Source: Synergistaceae bacterium
GTDB lineage: Bacteria; Synergistota; Synergistia; Synergistales; Aminobacteriaceae
Assembly: GCA_017470485.1 (NCBI GenBank)
Contig: JAFUYQ010000013.1
Coordinates: 124,001 to 188,000 of the forward strand
Direction: 5' to 3'
DNA: 64,000 nucleotides
In this document: positions 25,098 to 64,000 of the stretch, piece by piece
How the letters are laid out: every line of letters begins with the position of its first letter
Numbering within the stretch: the stretch's first letter is position 1
The notes under the pieces: model-generated
Database searches by the model: none
Seen by the model: the letters and a program-made list of their open reading frames with translations, nothing else
Told to the model about the DNA's origin: nothing
Program-made: the position numbers and the translations under genes

Positions 25098-26501
25098 ATG
25101 CCCTCAGAGAAAAACAAAAAGAATCCTCCAAAAGAGGAATGCTGTTCGTTCTGCGGAAAACCGGCTTCAATGGTTAATGGTTTATTCGAGGGGCCGGGCG
25201 GTAAAGTCAAAATCTGCGACGAGTGCCTGACTGTCTTCAATATTATGATGGCCGGCAGGAATGTTCAGGCAGTGCAGATGCCCCCTGAAAATCCATCATC
25301 AGACCCGTTCGCGAACTTTAACACAATGATTCTCGGCAGTGATAACAGCGGAAAAACTGATACCCCTTATGAAGCTGTTTCGTCAAAAAACAGGAGAGCA
25401 GGTAAGGCAGAACCGGTGCGCTTCACGAACACCCCGATTAAACCGAAAGAACTCAGCGAATATTTAGACCAGTACGTTATCGGGCAGTCGAGAGCTAAAA
25501 AAGTTGTCTCCGTAGCTGTCTATAATCATTACCAGAGGGTCTGGAACAATTTAGACCGTTTTAACGCTGACGTTGAGCTTCAGAAAAGCAATGTTCTTCT
25601 TTTAGGGCCTACAGGTTCGGGAAAGACTCTAATTGCTCAGACACTGGCAAGAAAACTTAACGTTCCTTTTGCGATTGCTGACGCTACTACGCTGACTGAA
25701 GCCGGTTATGTCGGAGAAGATGTAGAGAATATTCTTGTGAGGCTTCTTCAGGCTGCCGATTACGATTTGAAGGCTGCCGAACGCGGAATAATCTATCTTG
25801 ACGAGATCGACAAGATTTCGAGAAAGTCCGAGTCAGCGTCAATAACCCGTGATGTTTCGGGCGAGGGCGTACAGCAGGCATTACTGAAGATTCTTGAGGG
25901 AACACTCTCGAACATTCCCCCGAAGGGCGGACGAAAGCACCCTCATCAGGATTTCATTCAGATTAACACGGAAAATATACTGTTCATCTGCGGAGGGGCA
26001 TTTGACGGATTAGAGCCGATTGTTGCGAGGAGGGAGCTTCAGAAATCAATAGGCTTCGGCGGCGAACTGGCCGAGAAATCAGGAAGCTATGAGATTCTCA
26101 GCAAGGTTCAGCCCGAAGACTTAGTAACTTACGGATTTATACCCGAACTTGTCGGGCGTATTCCAGTCCTCGTAACCCTCGAAGAACTCGACAAGGACGC
26201 TTTCGTAAGGATACTTCAGGAACCTAAGAACGCTCTTGTCAAACAGTACACGAAGATTTTTGAGATGGACGGCGTTGAATTAACGTTCACGCCAGAAGCT
26301 CTCGACAGGATTGCGGAACTGGCGGTGAAACGCAAGACAGGCGCGAGAGGACTCCGTTCAATAATGGAGAACATGATGCTTGATATAGAGTTTGAGCTTC
26401 CGTCAATGACAGACGGGGAGAAATCAGGCAGGAAGTTAATCATCACTCCCGAATACGTCAACAATCCAACAACACCGCTGAAAGAACTTCTGCATGACTG
26501 A
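25098..26501 (+). CDS. clpX: ATP-dependent Clp protease ATP-binding subunit ClpX
   Basis: Unfolds substrates and feeds them to ClpP. The N-terminal zinc-binding domain has cysteines at about 16, 19, 40 and 43. Then come Walker A GPTGSGKT (170-177), Walker [10 protein letters not shown] and sensor 2 [10 protein letters not shown]. The linker between zinc domain and AAA domain (about 60-108) is longer than usual. 467 residues. It overlaps engB by 8 bases. No lon gene follows, unlike many genomes. Confidence 0.97.
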
Positions 26502-27099
26502 GAGAATTTTCACGAAAGCCCGGATTGAGGCGACCTGCTTTAATCCGGGTCAGCTTATCCCCGAAGATATTAACATTCCCGAAATCGCTGTGGCCGGACG
26601 CTCGAATGTCGGCAAGTCCTCGCTGATTAACGCTCTTTTGGGGGCGAGGCTCGCCAAGACAGGACAGACTCCGGGAAAGACAAGGAGCATAAATTTTTAC
26701 CGTGCCGAAAGTCCTTCGGGAAGTCTCAGGATTGTTGACCTTCCGGGCTACGGTTACGCAAAGAGGAGCAAGGACGAGCGGAACGAATGGCAGAGGCTCG
26801 TCAGCGCGTACATGAGAGACAGGGAGAGTCTAAGGCTGGTTTGTCATCTTGTTGATTTCCGTCATGGCCTGCTGAAGAATGACAAGGAGCTTCAGGAATG
26901 GATAAGGTCTGAGGGGAAGAAGATATTTGTTGTCTTCACTAAGGCCGACAAGATCGCTAAAGGCAAGTGGCGGAGTACCCGTGAAGGTTACATAAGGGAC
27001 GGGCTTTATTCATACGATGTTCCCGTGATAACTTCGGCGGAGAAGAAGGAGGGTATCGACTCGCTGGGGGAGTTCCTCGTGAAGTTCGTGAAGGTGTGA
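26494..27099 (+). CDS. engB: Ribosome biogenesis GTP-binding protein EngB/YsxC
   Basis: A GTPase for 50S assembly. G1 is GRSNVGKSS (about 34-42), G2 [10 protein letters not shown]3 [16 protein letters not shown]4 TKADK, and G5 around TSAEKKEG. 201 residues, normal. Last gene of the tig operon by spacing and its overlap with clpX. Confidence 0.96.
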
Positions 27100-27158
27100 T
27101 ATAATGTCTTAAATTCAGCAGACATCAATAAAAATTCAGTAGAAAGGACGTAGACAAA

Positions 27159-27330
27159 GTGATTTTAGGCGGCTATAATCGAACCACGAACCACGAACCA
27201 CGAACCACGCTATAACTATGTCCTGATTGAGACTGAAAAACTGAATACAGAGACCGACGCTCTTACGTTTGGAGAATTATTGTCTGAACGTGAGGGCGAT
27301 TTTTTATGTCTGAAAGGAGACGTATACTAA
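27159..27330 (+). pseudogene. Small broken ORF interrupted by a heptamer-repeat insertion
   Basis: A GTG at 27159, 10 bases after AAAGGA, opens a frame reading VILGGYN. The frame then enters the heptamer repeat and stops at 27213-27215. A second frame (27211-27330) runs open as YNYVLIETEKLN...TFGELLSEREGDF...GDVY and ends in TAATG, overlapping the start of the next gene. Removing the 37 bases comprising the repeat block plus one copy of GCTATAA joins the two into one ORF of about 44 codons. I do not recognise the product. The TAATG overlap suggests it was once a coupled leader for the surface-protein gene. Coding status is inferred from frame openness alone. Confidence 0.5.
27173..27215 (+). 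repeat. Four tandem copies of CGAACCA flanked by GCTATAA direct repeats
   Basis: CGAACCA occurs four times head-to-tail (27180-27207), bounded by GCTATAA on both sides (about 27172-27178 and 27209-27215). The 37-base unit of one flank plus the block has the look of an insertion with a 7-bp duplication. Seven is not a multiple of three, so copy-number change would shift the reading frame. Confidence 0.9.
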
Positions 27331-29585
27331 TGGTCAAAAAAGTTTTAGCGTGTTTGTTGCTGCTGTTGATGGCAGCGTCGGGGGCTTGGGCGAGTACTAA
27401 CTTGTGGATACCGCATCACTCGATTGCAAGCATTACTGATGGGAAAGCAGATTATTCTGATGCACGATTCACTGATATGTATTTTCCTGTTCTCTACGAT
27501 GATGTACCTGTAACGAAAGAATTAGCTAAGATTACAGGCAGTCTGACAATTTCTGGAGGTAGGTATTCATTCTGGAACGGCACAGAACTTCAAAAAATCT
27601 CTGGAACTCCTATGACTTATAGGCTTGGGCTTGAGACAGGGCTTGATTCGGGCGATGAAACAGCATATCAGGCTTTCACTGAGGCAGGCAATTATTTACG
27701 TTGCGGAGTTGAGGCAGATAATGGGCTGAACGGAGTAACAATGAGCTGGAATTTCCCTGATAATCCATCAATGAACGGGACATATACGCTTCCTAACTTC
27801 ATGACAACTCAGGAACAGCTTGATTCGTGCGTGCTGTATTTTGAGTTCATTCCCTCAGAGACGGACGCAACAGAGATAACAGGCATTGCTTGGCGCATCG
27901 TGAATGCTTCTGACACTTCAACAGCAGTAGCTCAGGTTTTTAGAATGCGTTTCAACAATTTTGAAGTGTGGAACTATAACGAGGATAAAATCCTGAACGA
28001 CAGACCTCGCATATGGATTGAGGCAGGCGATAACCCTGAAGGTGTTTATAACTTCAGTACTCCGATAAAGGAGGCAGAAATATGCCGTGTAATGACAAGG
28101 CTTTATACCTATGATGAAGAAGGCGAAAAACTGTATACATGGGACTACTACACAAAGTCAGAACCCAACATGTACCTCTGGAAACGCCATGCCTCTGATG
28201 CCTCGCTTGTGAACGGTAAATCCGACTACAGCAATGCAAAATTCTCAAATGTATTCTTTTCCATTGAGAACAGCAGCCCTTCAAAAGCTGAAGAAAAACA
28301 CTTCGCTAATACAGGGAGCATGAAAATACCGGGCGGAAACTATACGCTTGTAAATGCAGATACAGGGGAAACTCTCGGTAATGTAACGGGTGATACCACA
28401 CTGACGCTGAGATTCGATTCGGAAGGTGCTATCGGGGCTGACTACGCAGAATATTGGCCTATTGATGACAGCGGAAAGTTCGTAGCGTTTGCAGGAGGAG
28501 CAGAGACAGGACTCAACGGCAAAACAATAACATGGACATTCCCCACAGCCCTTGAAGAACTGAACGGAGAAGGAGTAATTCCGAACTACAAGACCACAGC
28601 CGAGCAGCTCGCGTCAGGAGTGCCTTATATTGAAGTTGTCAGCGAGGACGGATATATCACGGCGGTAAACTACAAGATAGTTACGTCTAAGGACACAGCG
28701 ACAGAGATAAAACCGTTATACGGTACGGATTTCAGATTCCACTTTGACCACGCGACAGGAAAAGATGTATGGGGAAATACTTATCGTTCGAGCTGGCTGA
28801 AAGGTACAGCGTCCGGCACATATAAACTTGGTATTCCACAGCCTGTCGGCGCAGTGAAGCGCATTCGTGTACGTCTCCGCTCATACGAGGACACCACAAA
28901 TCCAGCAGTCTATCAATGGAACTTCTACCCAGCCGAAGCCCCCACGCCTCCGACTCCTCCTGTACCGTCTGATACCCTCGCAATCACGACAGCGAGTCTT
29001 CCTTCGGGTACAGTCGGAACGTCATACTCAGCGACTCTCGCCTCGAACAGAACAGGCGTAAGATGGTCAATCATCGGCAGTCTTCCTTCCGGCCTGAGCC
29101 TCAACTCGTCAACAGGGGCGATCACAGGAACGCCGTTAATTTCAGGGACATCGAGTTTCACGGTGAGGGCTGTATCTGGAACATTGAGCGCGGAAAAACC
29201 ATTGAGCATAACAATCAGCCCTAAGCCGACTCCAACTCTCACGATAACGACAACGAGTCTTCCTTCCGGCACAGTCTTGACAGCTTACTCAGCGACTCTT
29301 CAGTCGAGTCCTTCGGGAGCAGCATGGTCAATTTCATCGGGAACGCTTCCGGCAGGTCTGACTCTGAGCAGTACAGGGGTAATCTCAGGAATACCGATAA
29401 CAGCTGACAGGTACGAGTTCAAGGTGAGGGCGGTATCAGGCTCATTGAGTGCTGAAAAGAGTCTGAGCATTACGGTTAATGGGCAGGGAGGTATCAAAGT
29501 CGGCGGAGGAAGTAGCGGCGGCTGTGAGTCAGGGCTTGCGCTTTCTGGTGTAATTCTTCTTGGGTTCTTCCTCAGAAAACGTTAA
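27330..29585 (+). CDS. Exported Ig-like repeat protein with Synergist-CTERM-type sorting tail
   Basis: Signal peptide MVKKVLACLLLLLMAASGAWA, then two related domains of about 260 and 230 residues (first STNLWIPHHSIAS..., second NMYLWKRHASDAS...), sharing the patterns DGKADYSDARFTDMYF / NGKSDYSNAKFSNVFF and GLNGVTMSWNFP / GLNGKTITWTFP. A Pro-rich linker leads to two putative Ig (He_PIG) repeats beginning LPSGTVGTSYSATL and LPSGTVLTAYSATL. The end is GGSSGGC, a hydrophobic helix and RKR, the Synergist-CTERM pattern, expected to be processed and anchored at the surface. The ATG at 27330 has AGGAG 10 bases ahead; the frame from 27306 would lack a proper signal peptide start. Confidence 0.85.
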   Translation: MVKKVLACLLLLLMAASGAWASTNLWIPHHSIASITDGKADYSDARFTDMYFPVLYDDVPVTKELAKITGSLTISGGRYSFWNGTELQKISGTPMTYRLGLETGLDSGDETAYQAFTEAGNYLRCGVEADNGLNGVTMSWNFPDNPSMNGTYTLPNFMTTQEQLDSCVLYFEFIPSETDATEITGIAWRIVNASDTSTAVAQVFRMRFNNFEVWNYNEDKILNDRPRIWIEAGDNPEGVYNFSTPIKEAEICRVMTRLYTYDEEGEKLYTWDYYTKSEPNMYLWKRHASDASLVNGKSDYSNAKFSNVFFSIENSSPSKAEEKHFANTGSMKIPGGNYTLVNADTGETLGNVTGDTTLTLRFDSEGAIGADYAEYWPIDDSGKFVAFAGGAETGLNGKTITWTFPTALEELNGEGVIPNYKTTAEQLASGVPYIEVVSEDGYITAVNYKIVTSKDTATEIKPLYGTDFRFHFDHATGKDVWGNTYRSSWLKGTASGTYKLGIPQPVGAVKRIRVRLRSYEDTTNPAVYQWNFYPAEAPTPPTPPVPSDTLAITTASLPSGTVGTSYSATLASNRTGVRWSIIGSLPSGLSLNSSTGAITGTPLISGTSSFTVRAVSGTLSAEKPLSITISPKPTPTLTITTTSLPSGTVLTAYSATLQSSPSGAAWSISSGTLPAGLTLSSTGVISGIPITADRYEFKVRAVSGSLSAEKSLSITVNGQGGIKVGGGSSGGCESGLALSGVILLGFFLRKR

Positions 29586-29650: not shown

Positions 29651-29757
29651 AACCATGCTTTGATTTCATGCGTTCATGTTTAATTAAAGGTGTCATGTGA
29701 TTGTCATGTGATTAAAATTGAGCGCAAGATTATAACCTTTAGGAGGATTAAGATTTT

Positions 29758-58843: not shown

Positions 58844-59766
58844 ACGTTATCATGAGAATTATTGCTGCCCTTGCGCTGTGTGTTGCAGTGTACGGGGCAG
58901 CCTTTGCGCTCGAAATCGTAAACGTAAACACGAAAATTACTGACGTTATTCATAATCCTGCTTTCGGCGGTTACGGACGGTTAATTTTTCCGGCTGACGA
59001 ATACTATTACAGCGGTGATACGCTCGGAGATTTGCGCCTTACATGGTACAGCAACATCAAACCTTCGAGGACTGTAGACATTGTGAACTACATGCTCGGA
59101 CAAGTTCAGAACGGCAGAAAAATATTTTACCGAATCTACCCCGATGATGACCCAAGAGCAGAGGATACGGGGCTGTTCTTCTTCAGGGGAAAAAGGGGAG
59201 CAAAGTTTGCTGTGTGCAATGCAGGTGGCGGATTTGTTTTTGTCGGAGCTATGCACGACAGCTTCCCTCACGCTCTCGAACTCTCGCGGAAGGGTTACAA
59301 CGCATTCGCCCTAATCTACAGACCCGGCGCGGAAACAGCATGTGAAGACTTGGCGAGGGCGATAGCGTTCATTCATGAGAACGCGGAAGATTTAGGGGTG
59401 GACGTTGAGGGATACTCACTATGGGGAGGCTCGGCAGGTGCAAGAATGGCGGCATGGCTTGGGGCTTACGGAACTGAGGCGTTCGGCGAGAAGAAATATC
59501 CCCGTCCTTCAGCCGTAATCATGCAGTACACGGGGCTTTCGGAAGTTACCGGCCATGAAGCTCCGACTTACGCATGTGTCGGAACGTCTGACGGTATTGC
59601 GCCGTACAGGTCAATGGAGTCATACGTGGGAAGGATTAAGGCTAACGGCACTGACGCAATGATTGAGGTATTTCGCGGATTGTCTCACGGTTTCGGGCTG
59701 GGCGAAGGAACTGCGGCGGAAGGGTGGCTGAACAATGCCGTGAAATTCTGGGAGAAGCGTCAGTGA
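58840..59766 (+). CDS. Exported alpha/beta hydrolase (esterase/lipase type)
   Basis: 308 residues with a hydrophobic signal (MRIIAALALCVAVYGAAFA). Nucleophile elbow LWGGSAGARMA, and His in RGLSHGFGLGEG; NAGGGFVFVGAMH is the HGGG-like oxyanion turn. It overlaps the carboxylesterase by 4 bases. An ATG at 58852 is an alternative start. It ends 10 bases before the convergent aminotransferase. Confidence 0.85.
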   Translation: MNVIMRIIAALALCVAVYGAAFALEIVNVNTKITDVIHNPAFGGYGRLIFPADEYYYSGDTLGDLRLTWYSNIKPSRTVDIVNYMLGQVQNGRKIFYRIYPDDDPRAEDTGLFFFRGKRGAKFAVCNAGGGFVFVGAMHDSFPHALELSRKGYNAFALIYRPGAETACEDLARAIAFIHENAEDLGVDVEGYSLWGGSAGARMAAWLGAYGTEAFGEKKYPRPSAVIMQYTGLSEVTGHEAPTYACVGTSDGIAPYRSMESYVGRIKANGTDAMIEVFRGLSHGFGLGEGTAAEGWLNNAVKFWEKRQ

Positions 59767-63708: not shown

Positions 63709-64000
63709 TTACCTTCCTGAGATTCGACGCATGAATATCAATTCATAACCGTACTGTCCTGATGTACTGTCCTGAGTTCTTCTTGAGCCGACAACCTGCC
63801 AGCCCTCGCGGCCTCTCTGAGACATTCTGTCGTTGAGATTGGGATCAAGAATGAAATCTATCGCGTACTCGTATGACGGTGCTGTCTCATGAACGGGAAC
63901 TGACTCAAGTCCTGAACTGTTCATTGCGAGCGAAGTGATTTTGTCTGAAAGCTGCATTAGCTGCCAGAGAATCAGCGAGCCTACGATGAGGGTAAGCCCC
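63709..64000 (-). CDS. DUF4177-like membrane-anchored protein (5' end outside window)
   Basis: The frame stays open upstream of its first internal ATG (63957) to the window edge, reading a hydrophobic stretch (LTLIVGSLILWQL) that is a membrane helix. The C-terminal part SYEYAIDFILDPN...QRGREGWQVVGSRR...YGYELIFMRR resembles DUF4177, a small beta domain. So the visible 97 codons are the anchor plus the domain; the true N-terminus lies outside. Ten bases upstream of ftsY. Confidence 0.7.
   Translation of the reverse strand, partial: GLTLIVGSLILWQLMQLSDKITSLAMNSSGLESVPVHETAPSYEYAIDFILDPNLNDRMSQRGREGWQVVGSRRTQDSTSGQYGYELIFMRRISGR

Follow-up and report, generated by a model that had tools for sequence, protein, structure and literature searches.

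The window analysed here, a stretch of 64,000 nucleotides, contained a series of control signals between two genes, all on the forward strand. The upstream gene was engB/ysxC (26494..27099; NCBIfam TIGR03598, E=2.3e-54). The downstream gene, considered below as the regulated one, encodes a signal-peptide surface protein with He_PIG Ig domains (27330..29585; PF05345, E=4.7e-20). Its tail, GG..C-hydrophobic-RKR, is similar to that of Synergist-CTERM proteins, the name given to the gene in a preliminary description of this DNA, but no NCBIfam match was obtained. An extended -10 element (P1, TGATATAAT) located at 27097..27105, its -10 overlapping the stop codon of engB/ysxC. A Shine-Dalgarno sequence (AAAGGA, 27143..27148) was followed by a second promoter-like element, TAGACA-N17-TATAAT (27151..27179, P2-like), which overlaps the leader start codon GTG (27159..27161). 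The P2-like element agreed with the consensus in 11 of 12 positions, a score not significant from that one sequence alone.

The array (CGAACCA)4.3 occupied 27180..27209, between TATAAT and GCTATAACTATG. It was detected by TRF with period 7, 4.3 copies and 100% matches, as the top-scoring tandem array in the 64 kb, and direct copies of GCTATAA were present on both sides; both the array and these flanks had been recognised in the preliminary description and are real. After the array we found an intrinsic terminator at 27258..27305 (CGCTCTTACGTTTGG / CTGAACGTGAGGGCG, then ATTTTTT; -23.8 kcal/mol). With its loop limit of 8, the standard terminator scan did not pick up this hairpin. The window also contained two further short tandem arrays of about two copies each, an 11-mer at 29691-29713 and a 13-mer at 63751-63775. 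A match to RGGANNGTAGACANNRTG at 59068 had neither an array nor a TATAAT at the usual distance, and was rejected as a cassette.

The frame starting from GTG 27159 is currently closed at TAA 27213-27215, after 18 codons (leader ORF 27159..27215), with the stop 42 nt 5' of the hairpin. Another frame, open after the array from 27211 to 27330, crosses the terminator, and its TAA overlaps the gene start as TAATG. When one copy is lost to leave three, or when the 37-base block is deleted, GTG 27159 comes in frame with 27211-27330 and a joined ORF of 44 codons ending in TAATG results; both cases had been predicted, and the frame bore them out. Four copies correspond to OFF at this locus, and three or six would correspond to ON. 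The joined 44-residue peptide also proved to have homologs in further species of the same genus (E=1.9e-15 to 1e-4), and the strong matches lay directly 5' of related signal-peptide surface-protein genes and carried an array of their own at the corresponding point. No family for the small ORF was found in Pfam or NCBIfam, and a search of known RNA families gave nothing more than a sub-threshold chance match elsewhere.

A genome search for other (CGAACCA)n blocks, suggested earlier, revealed no second copy in the 1.95 Mb genome. Arrays of other units were found in the same setting across the genus, forming 47 cassettes in 21 of 43 species (Synergistaceae MAGs), whose named relatives came mostly from goat or sheep gut. 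The array had first been described as a lesion breaking a small gene, a term that has to be dropped for a part of a conserved leader cassette. Through a DNA pattern for the start region, 21 cassettes of type 1 were collected in 10 of the 43 species; their named records were Synergistaceae, Synergistales or "Fretibacterium" MAGs, and the host, where stated, was goat or sheep. A looser pattern, GTAGACA-N17-TATAATC, gave type 2, with 22 cassettes analysed and four more cut by contig ends. Other genera of the family yielded nothing with the long type 1 pattern, and in 151 genomes of the order no species beyond this genus matched the shorter pattern exactly. One-mismatch matches in two other genera (G098 and G101) had no start codon at the usual place, and viral contigs lacked the exact cassette pattern.

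The order of parts was P1, Shine-Dalgarno sequence, TAGACA-N17-TATAAT containing the leader start, tandem 7- or 8-mers, and then either a terminator and a gene (35 analysed loci) or an in-frame gene fusion (six loci). The fused loci (L041, L052, L148, L150, L159 and L160) were without terminator, and one frame was joined to a long coding sequence. The repeat units included CGAACCA, CGAGCCA, CAAGCCA, CAGCTCA, CGATTCA, CGCTCAA, TCACGCA, TCGGTTA, CGCTCAGA and others. Unit length was 7 or 8 in nearly all cassettes (period 13 or 14 in two), the copies ranged from about 1.4 to 10, and arrays with differing units occupied the identical position across the 21 species, beginning at most 2 nt from the -10 box in every examined cassette. 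The 5' GCTATAA of the window belongs to the -10 box TATAAT and the 3' copy to a segment further downstream, both of them conserved, and in other members these flanks differ independently, for example GCCATTAC in L043. The flanks are therefore not a target-site duplication, and the mobile repeat suggested earlier loses this support together with that of further genomic copies.

The slot just 3' of engB held cassettes in several species with differing cargo (surface protein, FkbM methyltransferase, GNAT acetyltransferase), as seen in the upstream flanks of L041, L047, L048, L050, L052, L055 and L059, as if it were a favoured slot. A surface-family gene of locus L113 was free of cassette and array and carried a hairpin and T-run just 5' of it (about 1440-1500), possibly a relic or an ordinary terminator.

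The sequences around the leader start were conserved. The P1 motif TGnTAnnWT, with the conserved form TGnTATAAT, was present in 35 of 42 cassettes, compared with 8% in shuffled upstream DNA, and purine runs of the AAGGA, AAGGAG or AAAGG type preceded the start in the listed cassettes. The leader start, ATG, GTG or TTG, was at the fixed position of its type in 39 of 43 cassettes and was shifted 1 or 3 nt downstream in the other four. TAGACA was found in 42 of 43 cassettes and TATAAT, TAAAAT or TACAAT 17 nt later in 43 of 43, counts to be read with the caveat that the family was gathered by the TAGACA/TATAAT pattern itself. TATAATC is read as GGC TAT AAT C in one type and as GCT ATA ATC in the other; since types 1 and 2 use different codon frames, what is conserved is the DNA or RNA sequence and not the residues encoded. 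RNA from a promoter of the P2-like kind would not carry the leader start and would end at the terminator every time. We might speculate, with little confidence, that the P2-like element, at whose melted/start region the array begins in every examined cassette, is a working second promoter which drives hypermutability of the array or makes a short terminated RNA; the cassette would then be a portable switch that brings its own driver of slippage.

A hairpin with a T-run followed the array in all 35 analysed terminator loci. Hairpin scores were 24-39 in 32 loci, with weaker values in L050 (18), L162 (17) and L153 (15), and shuffled sequence mostly stayed under 15. Those type 1 hairpins for which the whole structure was folded gave -16 to -31 kcal/mol, and stem positions varied with pairing kept, such as CG, AT and GC at one position. 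For L147 and L172 the terminator was not assigned by the scan. Exactly one frame passed the hairpin and two stopped 5' of it in 34 of the 35 loci, compared with 10.6 expected from shuffles (30%), though many of these loci are related and thus are not independent tests. Grouped at 75% identity the leaders formed 14 clusters, and the one-open-frame pattern was seen in 13 of them (binomial about 2e-6 if the clusters were independent). The closed frames ended 20-78 nt 5' of the hairpin. L165 was the exception, with two crossing frames, and in L045 and L058 the open frame stopped inside the hairpin.

The genes behind the cassettes included those for Ig-domain surface proteins (PF05345), FkbM methyltransferases (PF05050), a GNAT acetyltransferase (PF13480; the cargo of the fused loci L041 and L052), TupA-like ATP-grasp enzymes (PF14305), Methyltransf_24 proteins (PF13578) and a GLUG-motif protein (PF07581). 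Judged by the family names, most of this cargo would serve in building or modifying the cell surface, where phase variation usually acts. Among the methyltransferase and ATP-grasp loci, the stop of the open frame was almost always -6 to +10 nt from the gene start (L171 is an exception). In most surface-protein loci besides the window, the open frame ended 19-158 nt inside the gene or 42-44 nt before it, or was fused, so the stop/start coupling is not conserved in these loci.

Open-frame arrays were found in 12 of 35 terminator loci (34%) and two of six fused loci; about one third ON is as random phase would give. One genome was used for each species, and the copy-number comparisons are therefore between species. 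In the sister species G010 and G030, orthologous loci with flanks 88-90% identical had 8.7 and 6.7 copies at two loci; at a third the unit and number both differed (CAGCTCA 7.6 copies, another unit 1.4 copies). Two paralogs in one genome (L149 and L152) carried 5.4 copies (OFF) and 7.4 copies (ON). The idea that copy number acts as a frame switch agrees well with these data, for array length sets the frame and the number differs between orthologous loci. Seven cassettes were located at contig ends (L154, L156, L164, L166, L053, L044 and L057), as would be expected if variable or repeated sequence had hampered assembly.

The DNA itself shows the parts and their order, the frame logic, the conservation and the fact that orthologous loci differ in copy number. 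From these we consider that the cassette is probably a phase-variable, translation-controlled transcription attenuator. P1 would yield an RNA bearing the leader ORF, and ribosomes would initiate at GTG 27159 and translate through the heptamers. Slippage would alter the number of 7-mers and thereby the frame in which the array is left. Two of the three frames would bring the ribosome to a halt 5' of the hairpin, the terminator would form and the gene would be off; in the third it would cross the hairpin and block the terminator, and RNA polymerase would pass and transcribe the gene. A ribosome in the open frame would finish at or near the gene start codon and may also couple translation. In the six fused loci, with the cassette head joined to a coding gene, the frame would control the protein itself. 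The pyrBI (pyrL) attenuator of E. coli is alike in that a ribosome on a short leader crossing an intrinsic terminator lets the polymerase pass, and differs in that its signal is UTP, acting through pausing of RNA polymerase, and not the number of repeats.

Switching of the surface gene through coupling was proposed in the preliminary description, which overlooked the terminator, both promoter-like elements and the spread of the cassette family across the genus. The overlap on which it was based is real: TAATG is present in the window and stop/start overlap occurs in nearly all enzyme loci. If coupling acted alone, the leader frame would only set ribosome arrival at the gene start and the hairpin would be incidental. 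We regard this as improbable, considering that hairpin and T-run are kept in every terminator locus analysed and that most surface-protein loci are without conserved coupling. Because the leader frame crosses the strong intrinsic terminator at 27258-27305, an attenuator is preferred to a switch by coupling only; and because surface-protein loci mostly have no stop/start overlap, attenuation is the feature common to all terminator loci, with coupling as an extra in many.

A promoter-type switch could also be imagined. In Haemophilus influenzae, 7-bp repeats lie about 100 bp 5' of the surface adhesin genes hmw1A and hmw2A, with two possible start sites (PMC2651432). The window likewise has heptamers upstream of a surface-protein gene and two possible start sites, but in hmw1A/hmw2A the repeats were reported to modulate promoter output and no leader frame or terminator logic was described (PMC2651432). 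By this model the array would lie at the P2 start site and copy number would tune transcription from P1 and P2, not the frame. Consistent with it, TAGACA-N17-TATAAT is retained whichever of the two codon frames reads it, and in every examined cassette the array adjoins the -10 box. However, the conserved start codon and the one-open-frame pattern would be left unexplained, as would the six fused loci with the array inside the coding sequence, and we consider it very unlikely. Disruption of a small gene by a mobile repeat, or by repeat expansion without function, would account for the closed frame in the assembly and the direct GCTATAA flanks, but is hardly credible with no other copy in the genome, other-unit arrays at the identical position in 21 species, and a conserved open frame and terminator.

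The attenuation logic itself is known. In Streptococcus gallolyticus pil1 it was shown by repeat-number variants, chloramphenicol, and start-codon and terminator mutants (Danne et al. 2014, PMC3894217), and the same logic was reported for pil3; the two loci carry the pentamer GCAGA in 13 and 22 copies in strain UCN34 and give two subpopulations (PMC3894217). The cassettes share with pil1/pil3 a leader ORF with its own Shine-Dalgarno sequence and start (near-fixed in all 43 analysed cassettes), repeats inside the leader with a unit not a multiple of 3, a premature intrinsic terminator before the gene, the window included, and a frame that sets the leader stop before the hairpin or within/after it. 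In contrast to these two pilus loci of one species, they are shared by 21 species and have 7-/8-mers of many sequences in fewer copies; a promoter-like element overlaps the leader start, the gene start is often overlapped by the leader stop, and the cargo includes enzymes. No sequence relationship is claimed.

The fused loci, such as the GNAT acetyltransferase loci L041 and L052, are comparable to Escherichia coli K1 neuO, in which a heptamer array in the 5' coding part lets the whole protein be made at repeat numbers divisible by 3, and whose product modifies cell-surface polysaccharide (PMC13001214). The repeat and gene family differ, and neuO is without a leader terminator, whereas the window array lies outside the coding region that it would switch and is followed by a terminator and a separate gene start. 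In the open literature, subscription papers aside, we found no other case of a repeat-slippage leader attenuator, and none in Synergistota.

New here are the phylum, the repeat units, the genus-wide cassette, the cargo and the promoter-like element overlapping the start codon. In about half the species of a gut Synergistaceae genus, logic of the pil1 type would recur with unrelated repeats as a standard cassette, placed before genes for surface proteins, for TupA-like ATP-grasp enzymes and for methyltransferases of the FkbM and other families. This suggests that random switching of such kind is a device able to evolve and to be moved between genes, rather than an isolated curiosity. Uncultured gut bacteria would thereby gain a system of surface variation that is open to testing and can be followed straight from metagenomic sequence.

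Relatives of the surface family in five other species of the genus had G or C homopolymers of 8-15 nt just upstream, at L104 (1409), L105 (minus strand, 1418), L109 (1275), L110 (minus strand, 1205) and L097 (1158). In L104, L105 and L110 the homopolymer separated a -35 resembling TTGACA/TTGACG from a -10 resembling TATAAT/TACAAT/TAATAT. The arrangement looks like another kind of phase-variation device, slippage in the promoter spacer, in the same surface gene family. In G101, which belongs to another genus, we found four identical copies of ATAGACAAGACCCCCCTATAAGCATATAAT (for example C1:53622-53655, L193), promoter-like and with a C-run in the spacer.
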